This document shows positions 4,570-13,174 of a stretch of DNA of 15,054 nt, piece by piece. Location of the stretch: positions 1-15,054 of the forward strand of contig LJUY01000069.1 of NCBI GenBank assembly GCA_001304015.1. Direction: 5' to 3'. A program made the translations under genes and the position numbers. Every line of letters starts with the position of its first letter. The stretch's first letter is position 1. The DNA comes from a candidate division Zixibacteria bacterium SM23_81 (lineage in GTDB: Bacteria; SM23-81). The notes below the pieces were generated by a model. That model did no database searches. It worked only from the letters and a program-made list of their open reading frames with translations, and was not told where the DNA came from.

Positions 4570-5004
4570 CTACCCTGTGGCAGCCATCGGTTGTGGTAAA
4601 GGAATCCCCCTGCCTTCTTCTGGCTTGCGCTGGGCCGCCTTCTCCCTGACCTGGGGCTGAGGGAGGGTGGTGAGGCGCAGGCTGCAAGCGGCACACCCTC
4701 TAGGGTTGGTGATGGGAGCAACTTTGACCGAGCAGGCAGCGCGGAGGAAGGAGACGGAAGGTGGCTCGTCGTTCCAGACCTCGGTTCTGCCGCCAGCGTA
4801 GCGGACGACAATGGCCGAGGAAGAGGATTTCTGGAGGGAGAAACGGAGGTGGTGGCAGGCGATGATTTTGGCCGGGCAGTTGCGGCAGAGATTGGGAGAG
4901 ACCTCGTTTTCGCCCAGGGTGATCTTGGCACAGACGATGCGCCCATCAGCAGCCACGCTCCGATGCTCACAGAGTCCGTTCACTGACCTATCATGATTAT
5001 GCAT
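4570..5004 (-). CDS. Cys-rich small protein of unknown function under a LexA-type promoter
   Basis: A 144-residue soluble protein with no signal peptide or membrane segment. Cysteines lie at 12, 25, 40, 43, 50, 91, 104 and 107, with CxxC pairs at 40/43 and 104/107 and CHH at 50-52. This suggests a zinc site or an Fe-S cluster. Basic and hydrophobic stretches between the Cys groups (LRFSLQK, AIVVRY, VSFLRAAC) look like real fold elements. It resembles a small conserved Chloroflexota protein I cannot name. Residues after about 110 (LTTLPQPQVREK onward) are low-complexity and run into the repeat zone, so the original C-terminus was probably shorter. It starts with ATG at 5002-5004, with AAGGGGG seven bases upstream. 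A consensus promoter with a LexA-like operator lies immediately upstream, implying DNA-damage induction; the role in repair or toxicity is unknown. Confidence 0.65.
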   Translation of the reverse strand: MHNHDRSVNGLCEHRSVAADGRIVCAKITLGENEVSPNLCRNCPAKIIACHHLRFSLQKSSSSAIVVRYAGGRTEVWNDEPPSVSFLRAACSVKVAPITNPRGCAACSLRLTTLPQPQVREKAAQRKPEEGRGIPLPQPMAATG

Positions 5005-5033
5005 AGCAAAACCCCCTTGGCTGTCCTAGCTAT

Positions 5034-5063
5034 ATTATACTAGAACATACGTTCTAATGTCAA
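5034..5063 (-). promoter_or_regulatory. Consensus sigma-70/A promoter of the Cys-rich gene
   Basis: On the minus strand, perfect TTGACA (5058-5063) and perfect TATAAT (5034-5039) are separated by 18 bases. Transcription should begin near 5027, leaving a leader of about 23 bases before the ATG at 5004. Such a strong promoter normally needs tight repression, consistent with the operator inside its spacer. Confidence 0.85.
5041..5056. promoter_or_regulatory. LexA-type SOS box
   Basis: The sequence TAGAACATACGTTCTA has TAGAAC/GTTCTA arms around a 4-base centre and fits the Gram-positive/Actinobacterial LexA consensus GAAC-N4-GTTC (5043-5054). It fills the spacer between the -35 and -10 boxes, where a bound repressor would exclude RNA polymerase. 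Confidence 0.75.
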
Positions 5064-5107
5064 GGGGGTTTTCAGTGAATCGCGAAAATTTTAAGGTTGG
5101 ATTCGGT

Positions 5108-5383
5108 TTAGTACCCGCCAGCTTCTTGATTCAGCATCTTCATGAGGCGAGACTTGCGGCGGGCGGCGTTGTTCGTGTGGATGACGCCTTTCTGGGCCGC
5201 CTTGTCCAGGGCGCTGATGGCCTGACGCACGGCAGCCTCGGACTCTTGGGTCCGGCCCTGCTCGGTGATGAGCTGGCGGGCTTTTTTGACGTAGGTACGA
5301 GCCGACGACCGGAAGATGCGGTTGCGTTGTCTCTTCTTCTCCGAGCTTCTGATTCGTTTCAGAGCCGATCTGGTATTGGCCAA
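5108..5383 (-). CDS. rpsT: 30S ribosomal protein S20
   Basis: A 91-residue, highly basic helical protein with the S20 signature: [20 protein letters not shown] at the N-terminus, then [37 protein letters not shown]. The length is normal for the family. It binds 16S rRNA early in 30S assembly. The start is TTG (5381-5383), fixed by a strong GGAGG at 5391-5395 seven bases upstream and by the universal M-A-N beginning; TTG is a known start for rpsT in several bacteria and is linked to translational autoregulation in E. coli. It is a single-gene unit with its own promoter; the neighbouring NTPase operon ends at a terminator upstream. Confidence 0.97.
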
Positions 5384-5550: not shown

Positions 5551-6840
5551 TCAATCCCTCAGCGTCTTCTCCACATTGAGGATTTGTTCGTCCAGCTCGA
5601 CGATTCTGTTGACCAGATAGTCTATCTCGTTCACCAGGTCCAGAGGCGGGCTGGGGCCGTGTTGCGCTTCTTTGAACTTGAGGTGCTCAAGGTTTCTCTC
5701 GTAGATGGCGTGGTCTTCCTTTAACTCTGTTAATTTGGTCTCAAGGGTTTCCGGGTCTGTCATATTGATGGGCCTTTCGCCTTGCTCGATGATCCATTGG
5801 GCAAACAGGAAGGAAAAGACTTCAGGGTGCCTGCCTCGATGCGTCACCAACCCCCGCTCGGTCAGGGAACGCAACTCACGGGTTAGCCGGGCCTGGGTGA
5901 GTTCGTGATCGAGATCGCGGGTCGCTATGGCGAGCAGCAAGGTTTTCTCACCTTCCGTTGAGGCTTCCCATAAGCTTTTGAAATGGTGCGATGCTTGCTC
6001 TTCGAAACGCTTGCTGATGGCCCAGTAGTTTTCTATGGGGCCTACTCGCACTCTGGACTCAAAGAGGAGGGAGCCCGCCGTCTGCAAAAGCAGAGGTTGA
6101 CCACCCGCTATTTGCTTGACATAATTACGTTCGTCCTCCGTGAACTCTAGACCGGTGCCTTTCAACATTTTGGTGAAGAACTGCTCCACCTCGGCCTCTG
6201 TGAAAGGCCTGAGTCGGAAGAGGAGAAAGCTGTTGCTGAAAGGCGAGCCCCTGAATTCTATCCCCTCACACAGCCTGTCCAGCGGCTGAGCGGCGCCGAT
6301 CACCAGGGCCAACCCTTTTGGCACCCGGTTGATGAGAGCCCGCAAGCCGGAGAGGAAATCATGGGTCATCTCAACGCTGCCAGGGTCGGTCCGCACCACC
6401 CATTCGAATTCGTCCAGCAACAGGACCAGCGTCTGCCCATCCTCGTAGATTCGGTCGCTGACGATCTCGAAATCAGTGCAACTGATTTCCTCGCACTCCA
6501 GTAGCTTGGCCGTGGCTTGGCCGAGAGAATCATCAGTGATCTTGTTTCCCAGCAGCCTCAAGACCCTTTGCCAAAAACGGGTGGGGGTGAAACGCGGTAC
6601 GGACTGGCAGTCCACGTAGAGGGGGAGAAATTGCTCTTGTAGGGTGACCTCGCTCAGTCGTCCGGTCAAATAGTGAAGTAGAGAGGTCCGGCCAATGTGC
6701 CGCTCACCGCTGATGGCGCTGCTGCCCCGGGCGGCGCTTGCCAGATGGTCCAGGATCCCCTGGAGCTCCTGCTCTCGCCCCACAAAGTAAGTTGGAGAGA
6801 CAGGGGAATAAGGGGTGAATGGATTTGAGGGATGTGCCAT
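5551..6840 (-). CDS. STAND/Orc-like NTPase with winged helix and C-terminal helical module; Walker A Lys replaced by Arg
   Basis: A 429-residue cytoplasmic protein. It opens with the cluster signature NPF...PV.P.YFVGREQEL (6-26). The P-loop at 45-53 reads GERHIGRTS, with Arg51 where Lys is expected; the codon is CGG. Walker B is LVLLLDEFEW (138-147). A GGQPLL motif (246-251) matches the HP/GxP segment of STAND and archaeal-type ATPases. A winged helix spans about 290-350. Residues 364-429 are charged helices (ERNLEHLKFKEAQHG...PLDLVNEIDYLVNRI) resembling short helical adaptor modules attached to bacterial conflict-type NTPases. It starts with ATG at 6838-6840, with AGGAG eight bases upstream. 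It is the last gene of the four-gene operon, 180 bases after its neighbour. It may be a nucleotide-binding-impaired adaptor or effector subunit; function is inferred. Confidence 0.8.
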   Translation of the reverse strand: MAHPSNPFTPYSPVSPTYFVGREQELQGILDHLASAARGSSAISGERHIGRTSLLHYLTGRLSEVTLQEQFLPLYVDCQSVPRFTPTRFWQRVLRLLGNKITDDSLGQATAKLLECEEISCTDFEIVSDRIYEDGQTLVLLLDEFEWVVRTDPGSVEMTHDFLSGLRALINRVPKGLALVIGAAQPLDRLCEGIEFRGSPFSNSFLLFRLRPFTEAEVEQFFTKMLKGTGLEFTEDERNYVKQIAGGQPLLLQTAGSLLFESRVRVGPIENYWAISKRFEEQASHHFKSLWEASTEGEKTLLLAIATRDLDHELTQARLTRELRSLTERGLVTHRGRHPEVFSFLFAQWIIEQGERPINMTDPETLETKLTELKEDHAIYERNLEHLKFKEAQHGPSPPLDLVNEIDYLVNRIVELDEQILNVEKTLRD

Positions 6841-6883
6841 CGGATAATCTCCTGACTAGCGGCAAATCCGTTGCAAACCCGCA

Positions 6884-6976
6884 CCCTTCGATACGGCCTC
6901 CGCTCCGCCTTTCGATACCTCAGGACAGAGTTCCGGCCTACTCAGGATGCTTGTGGTGAGCCGCGTGTCGAACCGC
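6884..6976 (+). repeat. Intergenic repeat, copy 3
   Basis: The gap between the third and fourth NTPase genes holds CCCTTCGATACGGCC (6884-6898), a second CTTTCGATACCTCAGG (6909-6924), GGCCTACTCAGGATG (6935-6949) and GTGTCGAACCG (6965-6975). It is the same family of motifs as near 3060-3116 and 4458-4530, and here lies inside an operon just after the shortened third gene. Confidence 0.55.
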
Positions 6977-7020
6977 TGGTCTCGTCTTGACAACCGTTGG
7001 CTTATTTGCGCCGCCATTTG

Positions 7021-7911
7021 CTAACCTACACCTAAGCCTACTTTCTTTACTTCTTCTCTGAACCTGGCCTCCATCGCCTGGAAGTTCTCTGCCGTCATCG
7101 GGCCAGCCGCCTTGGCTTCGAAGAGCAAGTGCCCCGCCAACAGGGCCAGCATGGGATGCCCTCGCGAAAGCCTAGAGATGTGGCGGCGGTCGTGCTCGTC
7201 AAAGGTCATTCCCGTGCCAGAGAGAGCGTTTTCGATCAACTCGTCGATCTCCTGGTCTGAGAATCCTTTCAAACGGACCGACATGAAACTGTTGGGGAAG
7301 GGCGACGCTCCCCCAAAATCTATCGTCTGGCACAATTCCTCCAGGGGCTCGTCGGTGGTGACCACCAAGGACAGCGTCCTTGGTCTGCGGTTAATGAGCG
7401 CCCGCAGTTGAGAGAGAAAATCCCGGGTTACCGTCTCATTGGCCACCTGGGTTCGGATCAGCCGCTCAAAGTTGTCCAGCAGCAGGATCAGCCGCTGCCC
7501 TCTCTCGTGAACGGCGTCCAGGATCATCTCAATGTCGGCATTACTGATTTGCTCTTGCTGGCATAGCTTCTGAAGGCCTTCCCCCATACTGTCCTGGAAG
7601 TGAGGTCGGAGGAGGTTAAGCACCTGTCGCCAGAAGGCAGTGATGTTGAAAGGGTGGTCTACCAATTGGCAATCAAAGAGGGAAATGAGGGCGTTGTCCT
7701 CTGTCAGGTCCCACTCCGCTGCAATCTCTGGCGCGGCGATGTAATGCAGCACTGAGGTTTTGCCGGTGCAGCGGGGGCCGCTGATGGCTACGCTGCCCTG
7801 GCCAGGGCCAGTCAACTGGCTGAAGGTTTTCGTTAACTCTCGCTTTCGGCCGATGAAACGGGAGGGGGGGACAGGGCCATCAATCCAGAAAGGGTTGATC
7901 CCGATGGGCAT
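7021..7911 (-). CDS. STAND/Orc-like NTPase lacking the winged-helix domain
   Basis: A 296-residue paralogue of its neighbours. It has the N-terminal NPFWIDGPVPPSRFIGRKREL (6-26), an intact P-loop GPRCTGKTS (45-53), and Walker B LILLLDNFER (141-150), where the second acidic residue is Asn147 instead of Glu. The conserved block SPFPNSF..VRLKGF (203-217) and RGHPMLALLAG (250-260) follow. The chain ends at VGLGVG right where the other members continue into the winged helix, so about 80-130 residues are missing, with dispersed-repeat DNA downstream. The start ATG (7909-7911) is 3 bases from the upstream stop, with the ribosome site (GGAGAGGAG) inside the upstream gene, indicating translational coupling. 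It probably binds ATP, with weak hydrolysis; it could be a regulatory subunit or a truncated remnant. Confidence 0.8.
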   Translation of the reverse strand: MPIGINPFWIDGPVPPSRFIGRKRELTKTFSQLTGPGQGSVAISGPRCTGKTSVLHYIAAPEIAAEWDLTEDNALISLFDCQLVDHPFNITAFWRQVLNLLRPHFQDSMGEGLQKLCQQEQISNADIEMILDAVHERGQRLILLLDNFERLIRTQVANETVTRDFLSQLRALINRRPRTLSLVVTTDEPLEELCQTIDFGGASPFPNSFMSVRLKGFSDQEIDELIENALSGTGMTFDEHDRRHISRLSRGHPMLALLAGHLLFEAKAAGPMTAENFQAMEARFREEVKKVGLGVG

Positions 7912-7914
7912 CTC

Positions 7915-10014
7915 TCACTCCTCTCCTGACCCTCTGCTGGAGATCATTTTCCGCAGGTCCTCTCCCAGCTCGGCGCAAGTCTGATAGCGCTGATCGGGGT
8001 CTTTGGCCATGGCTTTGAAGAGGATATCCTTCAACTCCAGAGGCAAGTGGGGGCCCAAGGCCGTGAGCGGCAGGGATTCCTCACTGCTCAAAAGACGGTG
8101 GATCACCGAGGTGATGTTCTTCCCCTGAAAGGGTCTCTCGCCGGTCAACATCTCGTAGAGGATGACTCCCAGGGAGAAAATATCGGAACGGCCGTCAATC
8201 TCCTGGCCCAATATCTGTTCCGGCGACGCGTATTCCAAAGTCCCGTGGAATGCTCCTGACTGGGAGGTACTTGATGATGAGGTTGAGGCCAATTTGGCCA
8301 GGCCAAAGTCGGTGACTTTCACCTGACCGTTTTCCAGTAGAATGATGTTGGAAGGGTTGACATCTCTGTGGATCACCCCGTGCTGGTGGGCATAGTCCAG
8401 GGCATTACCTATCTGGAGGGCAATGTCGACAGCCCGTGCCAGGGACAGGGGAGCCAGGACTTCCAGCACTCTAGCCAGGGTGGGACCTCCCAGGTATTCC
8501 ATGACAATGAAGGGCTCACCTCTGTCTTCGTCGGCATCATAGACGGCCACTATGTTAGGATGGGTCAGTTGTCCCGCAGACATGGCTTCGCGCTTGAAAC
8601 GCATCTTGGATTTCTGGGAGCGGACCTCCCAGTCCAGGCGCATGACTTTCAGGGTGACTAGACGGGCGATGTTGGGGTCTCGAGCCTTGTAGACTATGCT
8701 CATGGCCCCTTGGCCAAGTTCTTCAATGATTTCATAGCGCCCTATTCTCTTCCAGTCGGTGCGACCTAGCCTGACATTCTCCCTGTCACTAATCCGTCTC
8801 ATGACATTCGTCACTTGCTCTGCCTCATCTCTTGGAAGCAGGTCGAACATGAGCGTTTCTCGTTTGGCGAACTCTTCCTTGTCAGCATTCCTTATTTCCC
8901 TTATCACCCAGGATTCAAAGGTGGCTGGGCAGACGGTGATGCTCTTTCCCACCTGGGCAATGAGGCCCCGTTTGAGCAGGTCTTTCAGCGTGCGTTCATG
9001 GCGACGGCAAATACGCTCAAAGGCAACCCCATCGTAGGCCCATTTGCTCTTTTCACGTTCTCCCGATCTCTTCAGAGCCAGGACTGTCAAAAGCATCTGT
9101 TCCTCGCGGCTGCAGTTCTCCCAGAGCTGAGAGAGGTGGTAGCGAGCCAATTCTTCGAACTCGGCTCTGATTAATTCCGAGTTGGGAGCCGTTTCCAGAC
9201 CCTGCATACGGAACTCCAGAAGGGTGGAGCCGGCCAATTGGATCAGGAGGGGATGGGTTCCGGCCAGGGAGCAGACAAAGTCACGCTCTTCTAGGGTGAA
9301 TTCGATGCCTGTTCCTTTTAAAGCATTGTCGAGCAATTGGTCAATTTCTCTGCGGGTAAAGGGTCTTAGGCGCCGGAAGGTGAACTCGTTGTCGAAGGGT
9401 GAGCCGATGAACTTTATCGGACGGCACAGTTCGTGCAGCTCTCGACAGGTAGCAACGATCAGCACCAGGGCCTTCGGCGTCCGGTTCATGAGTGCCCGCA
9501 AGGCCGACAGAAAATCGCGTGTAATGGGTTCGTTGTCATCGTCGGTTCGGATGACCCACTCGAACTCATCGAGCAGAAGGACAAGCACCTGACCTCGGCG
9601 GCTGATTTCATCGAGGATGATCTCAAAGTCAGTGTGGCCGATTTCTTCCTTGGCCAGAATACCCTCAATGATCTCTGGAGGTAGGTTCCCTTTCCTTTCG
9701 CGGAGGAGGAGGGTGAGCAGCCGTTGCCAGAAACGGGAGGGTCTGAACTCACTGATGGATTGGGAATCCAGGAAAAGGAAGAGGTATTTGTCCTGCGATA
9801 AACCCCATTCTTGCAGGACATCAGGATGGCAAACGTATTGCAGCAGCGAGGTTTTGCCAATGCGGCGGTCTCCGCAAATGGCGATGCTGCCCAGCGCGTG
9901 GCTGGTGATTTGGTCAAAGACGATTTGTAGCTCTCGTTCCCGCCCGATAAAGTGAGAGGGGGGGACGGGGCCACCACAGATGAAAGGGTTTCCTAGCCTG
10001 TTCGCCGGTACCAC
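7915..10014 (-). CDS. STAND/Orc-like NTPase fused to a Hanks-type Ser/Thr protein kinase
   Basis: A 699-residue cytoplasmic fusion. The NTPase part has NPFICGGPVPPSHFIGRERE (9-28), P-loop GDRRIGKTS (48-56), Walker B LVLLLDEFEW (144-153) and AGTHPLLIQLAG (251-262), followed by a winged helix (about 300-375). A helical linker leads to a kinase domain (427-690): glycine loop ELGQGAMSIVY (432-442), Lys456 (VTLK), Glu476, HRDVNPSN (549-556), DFG (569-571), SPE (597-599). The catalytic loop has Asn553 where active kinases carry Lys. Most STAND-kinase fusions put the kinase first; here it is C-terminal. No membrane helix follows the kinase. It starts with GTG at 10012-10014 (AAGAGG nine bases upstream), 34 bases after the membrane-sensor gene, and is coupled to the next gene. 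Likely role: nucleotide- or sensor-controlled phosphorylation of partner proteins. Confidence 0.88.
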   Translation of the reverse strand: MVPANRLGNPFICGGPVPPSHFIGRERELQIVFDQITSHALGSIAICGDRRIGKTSLLQYVCHPDVLQEWGLSQDKYLFLFLDSQSISEFRPSRFWQRLLTLLLRERKGNLPPEIIEGILAKEEIGHTDFEIILDEISRRGQVLVLLLDEFEWVIRTDDDNEPITRDFLSALRALMNRTPKALVLIVATCRELHELCRPIKFIGSPFDNEFTFRRLRPFTRREIDQLLDNALKGTGIEFTLEERDFVCSLAGTHPLLIQLAGSTLLEFRMQGLETAPNSELIRAEFEELARYHLSQLWENCSREEQMLLTVLALKRSGEREKSKWAYDGVAFERICRRHERTLKDLLKRGLIAQVGKSITVCPATFESWVIREIRNADKEEFAKRETLMFDLLPRDEAEQVTNVMRRISDRENVRLGRTDWKRIGRYEIIEELGQGAMSIVYKARDPNIARLVTLKVMRLDWEVRSQKSKMRFKREAMSAGQLTHPNIVAVYDADEDRGEPFIVMEYLGGPTLARVLEVLAPLSLARAVDIALQIGNALDYAHQHGVIHRDVNPSNIILLENGQVKVTDFGLAKLASTSSSSTSQSGAFHGTLEYASPEQILGQEIDGRSDIFSLGVILYEMLTGERPFQGKNITSVIHRLLSSEESLPLTALGPHLPLELKDILFKAMAKDPDQRYQTCAELGEDLRKMISSRGSGEE

Positions 10015-10048
10015 TACCAGTTACCTCTTGAGAGCTTGACGTGGGAAC

Positions 10049-13000
10049 TCACTGTCGCTTCCAGAGTTGGCCTCCATCGGTTGATTTGTACAATCCCCCA
10101 AAGCTGGCCGCATAGATGGTTTGGCTATCATTGGGGTCTATAGCGATGGATTGCACGTAATAACCGCCGAGCCACGCGGCATCAATGGGCAGGCCGTTGT
10201 TAATGCTTTTCCAACTCAGGCCACCATCAGTGCTCTTGTAAATTCCATGTCCATCGTAATTGCTTTTGAAGCCAGTGCCGGCATAGATGGTGTTGGGATT
10301 GCGGGGGTCAATGGCCAGAGCCGATATTTTCAATTCAATTCCTGGATGTTTCAATCCCCCATTTCTTAACAGCCAGTTATGACCGCCATCGGTGCTCAGC
10401 AATGCGGTGGAGTCATTCGTGCCAGCGTAGATCCATTGGCTGTTTTTGGGGTGCAATGCCAGGGCATAAACCGCTTCCTTGAAGTAGCCAGAGGATAGCT
10501 TTTCCCATGGGGAGCTTCCGGCGTCAATAGATTTCCAGATCTCGGCGCCCCTGCCAGCGGCGTAGATTAAATTCCCGTCATGGGAGCCGATGGCCAGGGT
10601 GTAGATGGCTGTATCCCCCATGCCCTTGTTCCTTGCTTCCCACGTCAGGCCGCCATTGGAGCTCCTGTAAACCCCACGCTCAATCCCGGCGTAGATAACT
10701 TGGCTGTTACCCTCAGGGATAGCCAGCACATGGGCTGGCCCAGGGAGAGCGTCCTTTCCCACGGCGATCAATTCCCACGTTGTTCCTCCATCCATGGACT
10801 TTAGAATCCCATTCCAGATGGCCGCGTACAGAATCGAGGAGTCCTTTGGATCAATAGTCAGACTTTCAACTGTTTCATGCTTGTAAACTTGTTCCCAGCG
10901 ATAGCCACCGTCTGTGCTCCTGTAGATTCCTTGCCCTTTGACGATGGTGTATATCACTTTGTTGTTCTCAGGGTTGACGTCTACATCCCAGACCTCCACA
11001 GTTCCCAGAGGCTTTGGAGGTTGAGTAACCGGGGTTGAGGTCGGCGTCCAGGTTGGTGAGGGCGTGAAAGTAGGAGTGTTAGTTGCCGTCGCTGTCGGTG
11101 TTGGGGGAGTTGTCTCCGTTGGTGTGGAGGTTGCCGCCAGCGTTGGGGTAGGCGACGGTGCTACGGCGATGCTCACTTGAGTCGGTGTGTGCGTGGGGCT
11201 GGGAGACGGCGATGGCGATGGGGTCAGGGTAGCAGTAGCGGTTGGTGTCAAAGCAGCGAGAAGTTGTGCCCTCTTATATTCAGCGTATTTAGTGGTACCC
11301 CAGGCCCCAAGAGGGATAAGTACAAAGGCTGAGGCGATAGCAACCAGGGCCAGGCGCAGGTTGCGTTTGCGTCTGGCGATGCGTTCGCGCTGCAGAATCG
11401 CCTCTTTCAGCAGAGCAGACACCTTTTGGCCGTTTTCACCCACATAATCAGGATTTCTGCTGTATAGCCGCTCCCACTTCTCTTGTGCCAGGCTCCATAT
11501 CTTTGCCGTGTGGGCCACCATGGCTTCAGCGTAGAGGTTGGCCTGGGACCATTCTTCCAGCATCCTCTGCACACGCCGTTTGGCTTCCCCGTCGTCGAAC
11601 TCGCGTATCAACCATGTGTAGACGTCGTTGGCTCTTCTCCACTCCCTTTCTTGCTCGTACCCTTCCGCTTCAGCGAGCTTGATGTCTGTCAGCCGCCTCC
11701 GGGCCATTTCATTGTCAGGTGCAATCTCCAGAACCCGCTCATATCTTCTGGCTGCCTCAGCAACAGATGTGACATCTTTCTCCAATGATTCCCCGGATGC
11801 CAGTAGAGCCTTGATTAAACCTTCGCTGGCTATCTCATCCAGGTTATGAGCTTTCTCATATTCTGTGACTGCTTCTTCGATCAGGCCCTGTTCGTGCAAG
11901 GCTTGCGCCAAACCAAGCTGGGCTCCCGCGTGATTGGGATTGGCGGCCAGGGCACGCCGGTAGCTCTCCACAGCTATTTCCAAGTCTCCGTCAATGTGGG
12001 CTTGCCGCGCGTAGGTATAGTCGCGGATAGCCCGCTTGCTGATACTCTCTAGCTCCCGTTTGGCGTTCTCCAGGGAGTGTTTTTTACCGATCCAACGTCT
12101 CAGTAGTTCGACAACAAATTTGTAGCCATCCCGCTCTCCCGTCTTCTCAAGCCAGCCCCAATCCACCAGCATGTCAGGGGCTCGGGTCAACTCGACACCC
12201 AGCAACCGTACTCGATATCGGCGCAGGGCTTCGTTGATGCTTTCTTTGGTAGCTATCCCATTTTCGTCAGTGACACTGGTCACCGCTGAAAGGATGAACC
12301 GTTCGGCGATAGGCAACCCGTCCCAGAGCCAGGCCAGGCCCGAACCGCCGCTTTCTATGGCATCGTCAATAACGGCGTTAATGTCGTCTACCGTTACCCT
12401 GGTTTTGCCCAAGCTGTCGAGATAGTCAACCAGCTCAAAGCACACCAATTGTGTCAGGTAGGGGTGGCAAGCGGTGACAGAAAGGATTTGCTCGATGGCA
12501 TTGTCGTCGTATTCTAACAAGCCCAGCATGGGTTCTCTGATGAGCCGCCTGGCGTCTTCCCTGGAGAGGAAAGAAATCGGTCTGGTTCTGGCCTGTTTGA
12601 ATGTGGCCAGGAACTCAGGAGTCAGTTCCTCAAGGCGGCGTCCAACCACGAAGATATAGACCAGCTTCTCTTCATCGAAGAGTCTGTTTTGAAGGTAAGG
12701 GAAGAAAGTGTTCAGGGCCATTGCCCCATCTAGAAGCTCTTCACTGAGCACATCAAACTCGTCAAAGAGGAGAAGCAGATGCTGATCCTGGAGGGCTTCA
12801 TAAGCGTGTGGGAGGAAACATTCACTGAAATAGTCGCCATCGTCCTCGAACTCGGATTGGGCTACAGGGGAGAGGTTCAGCGTTTCAGCGATTTTCTCAG
12901 CCAAAGCGCACAGTACTTCGTTAAGGTTTTGGCTGGCTCGGCCTTCCAAATTGAAGTAGACAGGGTGAAAACCTTCCGGCAGGTTGGACGGCTTCTGCAA

Positions 13001-13174
13001 CTGGTAGAGGATGGAGGTCTTGCCGACGCGCCGCTGGCCGAACAGCACGATGACCTTTTGATGAGTTGACGAGAAGGTCTTTCGTACGAAATCAAAGACG
13101 TCTTGTCGTCCGTAGAAGCCTTCATCCCCTCCAATAGGTGGGCCTGCAATGTAAGGGTTCGGTATCCTGACCAT
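10049..13174 (-). CDS. Membrane-anchored STAND NTPase with TPRs and an extracytoplasmic Asp-box propeller
   Basis: A 1041-residue protein. Domains: N-terminal NPYIAGPP...GFYGRQDVF (6-27); NTPase with P-loop GQRRVGKTS (46-54), Walker B LLLLFDEFD (133-141) and CHPYLTQLVC (236-245); winged helix (about 290-362); TPR-like helices (about 383-590); basic RIARRKRNLR then one membrane helix (607-625); Pro/Thr/Ser-rich stalk (643-722); and seven Asp-box units ending S-x-D/N-x-G-x-x-W at about 753, 793, 838, 882, 927, 981 and 1031. The positive-inside rule puts the NTPase and TPRs in the cytoplasm and the propeller outside. Repeats alternate with LAIDP...IYAG strands typical of BNR/sortilin/YCF48-like propellers. 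It starts with ATG at 13172-13174 (AGAGGA six bases upstream) and is first in the operon. Likely a sensor that passes an external signal to the NTPase and kinase partners; ligand unknown. Confidence 0.9.
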   Translation of the reverse strand: MVRIPNPYIAGPPIGGDEGFYGRQDVFDFVRKTFSSTHQKVIVLFGQRRVGKTSILYQLQKPSNLPEGFHPVYFNLEGRASQNLNEVLCALAEKIAETLNLSPVAQSEFEDDGDYFSECFLPHAYEALQDQHLLLLFDEFDVLSEELLDGAMALNTFFPYLQNRLFDEEKLVYIFVVGRRLEELTPEFLATFKQARTRPISFLSREDARRLIREPMLGLLEYDDNAIEQILSVTACHPYLTQLVCFELVDYLDSLGKTRVTVDDINAVIDDAIESGGSGLAWLWDGLPIAERFILSAVTSVTDENGIATKESINEALRRYRVRLLGVELTRAPDMLVDWGWLEKTGERDGYKFVVELLRRWIGKKHSLENAKRELESISKRAIRDYTYARQAHIDGDLEIAVESYRRALAANPNHAGAQLGLAQALHEQGLIEEAVTEYEKAHNLDEIASEGLIKALLASGESLEKDVTSVAEAARRYERVLEIAPDNEMARRRLTDIKLAEAEGYEQEREWRRANDVYTWLIREFDDGEAKRRVQRMLEEWSQANLYAEAMVAHTAKIWSLAQEKWERLYSRNPDYVGENGQKVSALLKEAILQRERIARRKRNLRLALVAIASAFVLIPLGAWGTTKYAEYKRAQLLAALTPTATATLTPSPSPSPSPTHTPTQVSIAVAPSPTPTLAATSTPTETTPPTPTATATNTPTFTPSPTWTPTSTPVTQPPKPLGTVEVWDVDVNPENNKVIYTIVKGQGIYRSTDGGYRWEQVYKHETVESLTIDPKDSSILYAAIWNGILKSMDGGTTWELIAVGKDALPGPAHVLAIPEGNSQVIYAGIERGVYRSSNGGLTWEARNKGMGDTAIYTLAIGSHDGNLIYAAGRGAEIWKSIDAGSSPWEKLSSGYFKEAVYALALHPKNSQWIYAGTNDSTALLSTDGGHNWLLRNGGLKHPGIELKISALAIDPRNPNTIYAGTGFKSNYDGHGIYKSTDGGLSWKSINNGLPIDAAWLGGYYVQSIAIDPNDSQTIYAASFGGLYKSTDGGQLWKRQ
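11009..11248 (-). repeat. Low-complexity Pro/Thr/Ser coding repeat (stalk)
   Basis: In the sensor gene, about 80 codons are mostly Pro, Thr, Ser and Ala (TPSPSPSPSP, TPTPTATATNTPTFTPSP). They form an extended, probably O-glycosylated stalk between the membrane helix and the propeller. The DNA is G/T-rich on the plus strand and prone to length change. Confidence 0.8.

Follow-up and report, generated by a model that had tools for sequence, protein, structure and literature searches.

A probable Gram-positive-type LexA operator in the promoter of a conserved eight-cysteine protein gene points to an undescribed SOS operon of Anaerolineae

Does a palindrome lodged between the two hexamers of a promoter place a small cysteine-rich protein under the control of the SOS response? 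The question is raised by the window analysed here, a stretch of 15,054 nucleotides that makes up contig C8 of a 99-contig metagenome bin. Read directly, the minus strand from 5063 to 5034 has the form TTGACA-N18-TATAAT with both hexamers perfect, as the original prediction had stated, and the whole region runs, in minus-strand order, ACCCCC-TTGACA-TTAGAACGTATGTTCTAG-TATAAT-ATAGCTAGGACAGCCAAGGGGGTTTTGCT-ATG (Table 1). The core box GAACGTATGTTC (5054-5043) lies inside the spacer with 3 bp on either side, so that the LexA-type box does sit exactly between -35 and -10, and it is nested in the longer perfect palindrome TAGAACGTATGTTCTA (5056-5041). The gene downstream does encode a small protein with exactly eight cysteines (144 aa); only the gap of 23 bases given for it needs correction, the distance from TATAAT to the ATG (5004) being 29 nt.

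Table 1. Coordinates of the eight-cysteine gene, its promoter and its upstream neighbour in the window.
Feature	Position	Strand	Remark
144-aa eight-Cys protein gene	4570-5004	-	conserved Anaerolineae SOS-linked family
Right arm of inverted repeat, CAAGGGGGTTTT	5008-5019	-	holds probable ribosome-binding site AAGGGGG
-10 hexamer TATAAT	5034-5039	-	sequence
18-bp spacer	5057-5040	-	sequence
LexA operator palindrome TAGAACGTATGTTCTA	5041-5056	strandless	core GAAC-N4-GTTC 5043-5054; conserved in homologous loci
-35 hexamer TTGACA	5058-5063	-	sequence
Left arm of inverted repeat, AAAACCCCCTTG	5061-5072	-	identical in L006
A/T-rich upstream segment CCAACCTTAAAATTTTCGC...	5073-5099	-	common to promoter before lexA2/Cys in L007, L008
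rpsT (ribosomal protein S20)	5108-5383	-	upstream neighbour of Cys gene

The chance expectation per window is 0.01 for a perfect TTGACA-N18-TATAAT (1 of 200 shuffles) and 0.20 for GAAC-N4-GTTC by itself (40 of 200 shuffles), which makes the box unremarkable alone; the whole bin contains the box 37 times and its reversed control 39 times. With such an expectation for the box alone, conservation elsewhere has to decide, and the weight of the evidence is in the combination of promoter and box together with that conservation.

The bin itself is chimeric. It holds two full der genes (contigs C8 and C26) and two rpsT genes (C8 and C9), the cysteine family is absent from the other three of the four genomes of the bin's phylum that were examined, and the window matches the Anaerolineales MAG E26_bin7 at 84-90% DNA identity, with a common gene order of response regulator, Cys gene, rpsT and STAND-type ATPases. 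The contig is therefore almost certainly foreign, an Anaerolineae contaminant in the bin of another, rare phylum, and the bin's own LexA is irrelevant to the window box. The GAAC-N4-GTTC box was not found at the bin's own lexA genes, and this was considered as a refutation and rejected, since the duplicate der, the duplicate rpsT and the family-free phylum show the contig to be foreign. The lexA on C79 has the promoter TTGACATTTGCACAAATGTGCAG, seemingly with another LexA motif, so a naive check of the bin genome would have led to a wrong rejection of the SOS reading; a chimeric metagenome bin can in this way cause a regulon call to be missed or wrongly refuted. Upstream of the same C79 gene (L011, ~2800-2860) a palindrome, TGCACAAATGTGCA, overlaps the promoter, and is possibly a distinct LexA motif of the bin's rare main phylum.

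Among Anaerolineae, the box proved to be conserved upstream of orthologues. The promoter TTGAC-[GAAC-N4-GTTC]-TATAAT precedes the Cys gene, or the lexA in front of it, in 31 of 32 homologous loci, the single locus lacking it being cut by its contig end, and the box is kept in the -35/-10 spacer down to ~43% protein identity. The 35 distinct sites in module loci give the consensus TTGACATAGAAC-R-N-R-Y-GTTCT-NN-TATAAT, in which the box itself, AGAAC-R-N-R-Y-GTTCT, is Gram-positive-like. Fifteen neighbourhoods (265 kb) contain 45 boxes where ~4 are expected, and the combined promoter-box pattern has ~86 matches in 16 genomes, against ~11 in the reversed control.

The LexA of this lineage also appears to use the motif. 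The box is found in lexA's own promoter in homologous loci and before stand-alone lexA genes, separately encoded FtsK-like genes and a radical-SAM gene; recA promoters have it perfect in four genomes (G215, G252, G362, G398), with one mismatch in another four (G344, G304, G268, G406), and at a different position in G270, while at the recA of G098 (the closest relative), G169 and G138 it was looked for and not found. The neighbouring LexAs retain the Ala-Gly cleavage site and the Ser and Lys residues and score above the NCBIfam lexA cut-off; these features were read in relatives of the window's own Anaerolineae genome. Conservation of the box and its presence at lexA and recA of related genomes thus support the proposal that the gene belongs to a probable DNA-damage regulon. 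Our literature search returned no paper on LexA or the SOS response of Anaerolineae, or on LexA of other relevant Chloroflexi.

The protein under this promoter had zero matches in Pfam, NCBIfam, PADLOC, PHROGs or PDB sequences, and none of 16 family members matched in a Pfam search. No support emerged for a defence-system origin. A profile search of 396 genomes belonging to E26_bin7's class found the family in 31, and a search of 400 from the whole phylum found it in 2 (E26_bin7 being one of the two), so its distribution is narrow. All eight cysteines (12, 25, 40, 43, 50, 91, 104 and 107) are invariant among 16 aligned homologues, in the pattern C-x12-C-x14-C-x2-C-x6-C ... C-x12-C-x2-C, and they probably bind zinc or an Fe-S cluster, judging from this pattern. 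The alignment shows no hydrophobic segment. A dN/dS of 0.05-0.16 among four close copies indicates purifying selection; AlphaFold2, run on four sequences, gave no usable fold (pLDDT 36.8). Longer members add a low-complexity linker, mostly with a conserved C-terminal tip, (R/C)VGWTD, that the window copy does not have. In seven of these long members (L055, L059, L061, L054, L056, L063 and L067) the tip after the linker is invariant, an SSB-like layout, and such an arrangement of linker and tip is one that an adaptor might have.

In 25 of the 30 non-solo loci the Cys gene directly follows one lexA gene or two, and in 25 of the 30 a gene for an FtsK-like ATPase lies downstream of it, several of the exceptions being contig ends; the usual order is lexA(-lexA2) - Cys protein - FtsK-like motor - small membrane protein. 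Where the box precedes lexA, as in many loci, the Cys gene would be co-transcribed with it. The motor (366 aa, ~370 in general) consists of an FtsK_SpoIIIE motor domain (PF01580, 1.2e-38) and alpha domain (PF17854, 4.2e-11), and a domain search detected neither an N-terminal membrane part nor a gamma domain. Three further clusters of small genes are kept in the neighbourhood and lie downstream of the motor in L053-L067: c3, which encodes a small membrane protein, probably of two helices; c18, whose product weakly resembles DUF6504; and c4, for a short conserved protein with the motif 'WYDxxxxxxxxKI'. A tandem of two different lexA genes stands before the Cys gene in L007 (1964-3774), L025-L030, L057, L064 and L066, the second of them divergent (~28-58% identical to the first kind). 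To the extent searched, both the family and the operon are undescribed.

The sequence elements, their conservation, the operon context, purifying selection and hairpin potential were computed directly, and the reading that we prefer builds on them. It is highly probable that the palindrome truly serves as a LexA operator, set between the hexamers of a strong sigma-70 promoter that drives a cytosolic eight-cysteine protein under SOS control. From what is established of LexA, its binding in a promoter spacer would occlude polymerase, and RecA-dependent self-cleavage would lift the block. LexA would thus be expected to bind the window operator and exclude RNA polymerase, and DNA damage would free the promoter through RecA-stimulated self-cleavage; induction of the Cys gene by damage is very likely. 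Very probably the gene is a true component of the bacterial SOS response that had gone undescribed. As to what its product does, we infer a cytosolic, metal-binding SOS effector acting with the FtsK-like motor: most likely it would join this soluble translocase in acting on DNA, or would act together with DNA, and might for instance help to process or clear chromosomes that have been damaged. We put this functional partnership forward tentatively, as somewhat short of probable.

The strongest competitor for that last step is a damage-induced inhibitor of growth or division, of the kind of YneA, DivS, ChiZ or SidA, and not a protein that processes DNA together with the motor. Inhibiting division is a frequent role of small proteins encoded with lexA, and the membrane protein family c3 is among the next genes; the Cys protein, however, was found to have neither a transmembrane segment nor a LysM motif, its invariant cysteines look like a metal site, and the gene that most often follows is that of a DNA motor. 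We consider an inhibitor unlikely, though a serious candidate.

The box is also present where the Cys gene stands apart from the module: at the rpsT site of the window, and of L006, only the promoter and the Cys gene are found (solo copies), with lexA and ftsK not adjacent. An upstream segment, CAACCTTAAAATTTTCGC, is common to solo and full-module loci. The module has rpsT as a neighbour in five further genomes, in several of which rpsT precedes it, so the window's rpsT site may be its ancestral location. On the far side of rpsT the window carries four adjoining STAND/AAA ATPase-domain genes (5551-13174), one a Ser/Thr kinase fusion and one with TPR and BNR-like repeats, and related genes are also adjacent to the L006 copy.

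Flanking the solo promoter is a perfect 12-bp inverted repeat, AAAACCCCCTTG / CAAGGGGGTTTT (5061-5072 / 5008-5019). Folding of the RNA that reads through from rpsT gives a dG of -28.4 kcal/mol with z -5.2 in the window (z -5.5 in L006), as a hairpin with a terminal U run and with the AAGGGGG ribosome-binding site in its 3' arm, whereas RNA started at the SOS promoter is without the 5' arm and does not fold stably at this place (z +1.4). Because both genomes have identical arms, they give no covariation signal. The promoter lies in the loop of a terminator-like fold (5008-5072) that is expected solely in the read-through RNA, where it would mask the ribosome-binding site. Such a hairpin would end transcription that continues from rpsT and cover the ribosome-binding site of the Cys gene; the gene would then be insulated from rpsT and depend on the SOS promoter for nearly all its expression. 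One could picture a dedicated Anaerolineae SOS operon whose products form a new machine for responding to damage, a DNA pump that damage switches on and that has a metal-cluster protein as its adaptor or sensor, and whose solo copies are run independently by an SOS promoter hidden in a terminator loop that masks the ribosome-binding site; we offer this as a speculative model, more doubtful than not.

A solo copy could also be the decayed remnant of a moved or duplicated lexA module, its box real and its protein no longer of consequence. The missing lexA and ftsK neighbours would fit, as would the loss of the second operator that most module promoters have and the full module that G098 additionally carries elsewhere (L007). 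Decay is, however, hard to reconcile with an intact reading frame, a dN/dS of 0.10 between the two solo copies (window and L006), a promoter and box that are letter-perfect in both genomes and a conserved hairpin, and we regard it as improbable.

That the module belongs to a prophage or other mobile element whose repressor is LexA-like, the Cys protein serving transfer or excision, is quite improbable. An FtsK-like motor beside an S24-type repressor does resemble some integrative elements, and several copies occur at different places per genome, but the module sits among core genes of the chromosome, rpsT being one, and the LexAs lie above the lexA equivalog cut-off. A phage or plasmid origin is likewise unsupported: searches of viral contigs, phages, plasmids and PHROGs gave no relatives. 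Finally, that the palindrome is the operator of another dyad-binding repressor or a chance motif, as its frequency by chance and the box-less lexA genes of the bin might suggest, is very improbable given that the window contig is evidently foreign to its bin and that related genomes keep the box in their lexA, recA and Cys promoters.

The preferred reading, SOS control by LexA, gives Anaerolineae, a large environmental group, a testable LexA box and a conserved SOS operon. It also makes the unannotated eight-cysteine family, which has lexA and a DNA motor as its neighbours, a candidate for a new effector of the response to DNA damage.

Known systems resemble this arrangement in part. The genes yneA of Bacillus, divS of Corynebacterium and Rv2719c/chiZ of Mycobacterium are small SOS genes adjoining lexA, and share with the Cys gene both this position and a similar type of box. 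Their products differ from it: the Cys protein has a soluble eight-cysteine core and is not a membrane or LysM protein, and no sequence or domain similarity to YneA, DivS or ChiZ was found. SOS control of an FtsK motor has a parallel in the ftsK (dinH) gene of E. coli, which encodes a LexA-regulated FtsK DNA motor (PMC4080785). The proteins are nevertheless different, the Anaerolineae motor having only ~370 aa, with alpha and motor domains and without the N-terminal membrane part or a detectable gamma domain, and its gene standing behind lexA and the Cys gene. The closest likeness is in the operator: GAAC-N4-GTTC is the established LexA box of Gram-positive bacteria such as Bacillus and Mycobacterium (PMC3323433), and there too it overlaps a sigma-70-type promoter. 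A 2012 survey counted the Chloroflexi among the groups it considered, and gave as its limits the lack of a well-defined motif or of genomes. The extended RNRY centre of the Bacillus box recurs in the Anaerolineae consensus, whereas the flanks in this chloroflexotal host are A/T (AGAAC...GTTCT) and not C/G. The type of regulation is thus already known, a Gram-positive-type LexA box; what is new, as far as the search went, is the probable SOS gene family and the type of operon in which it is found.
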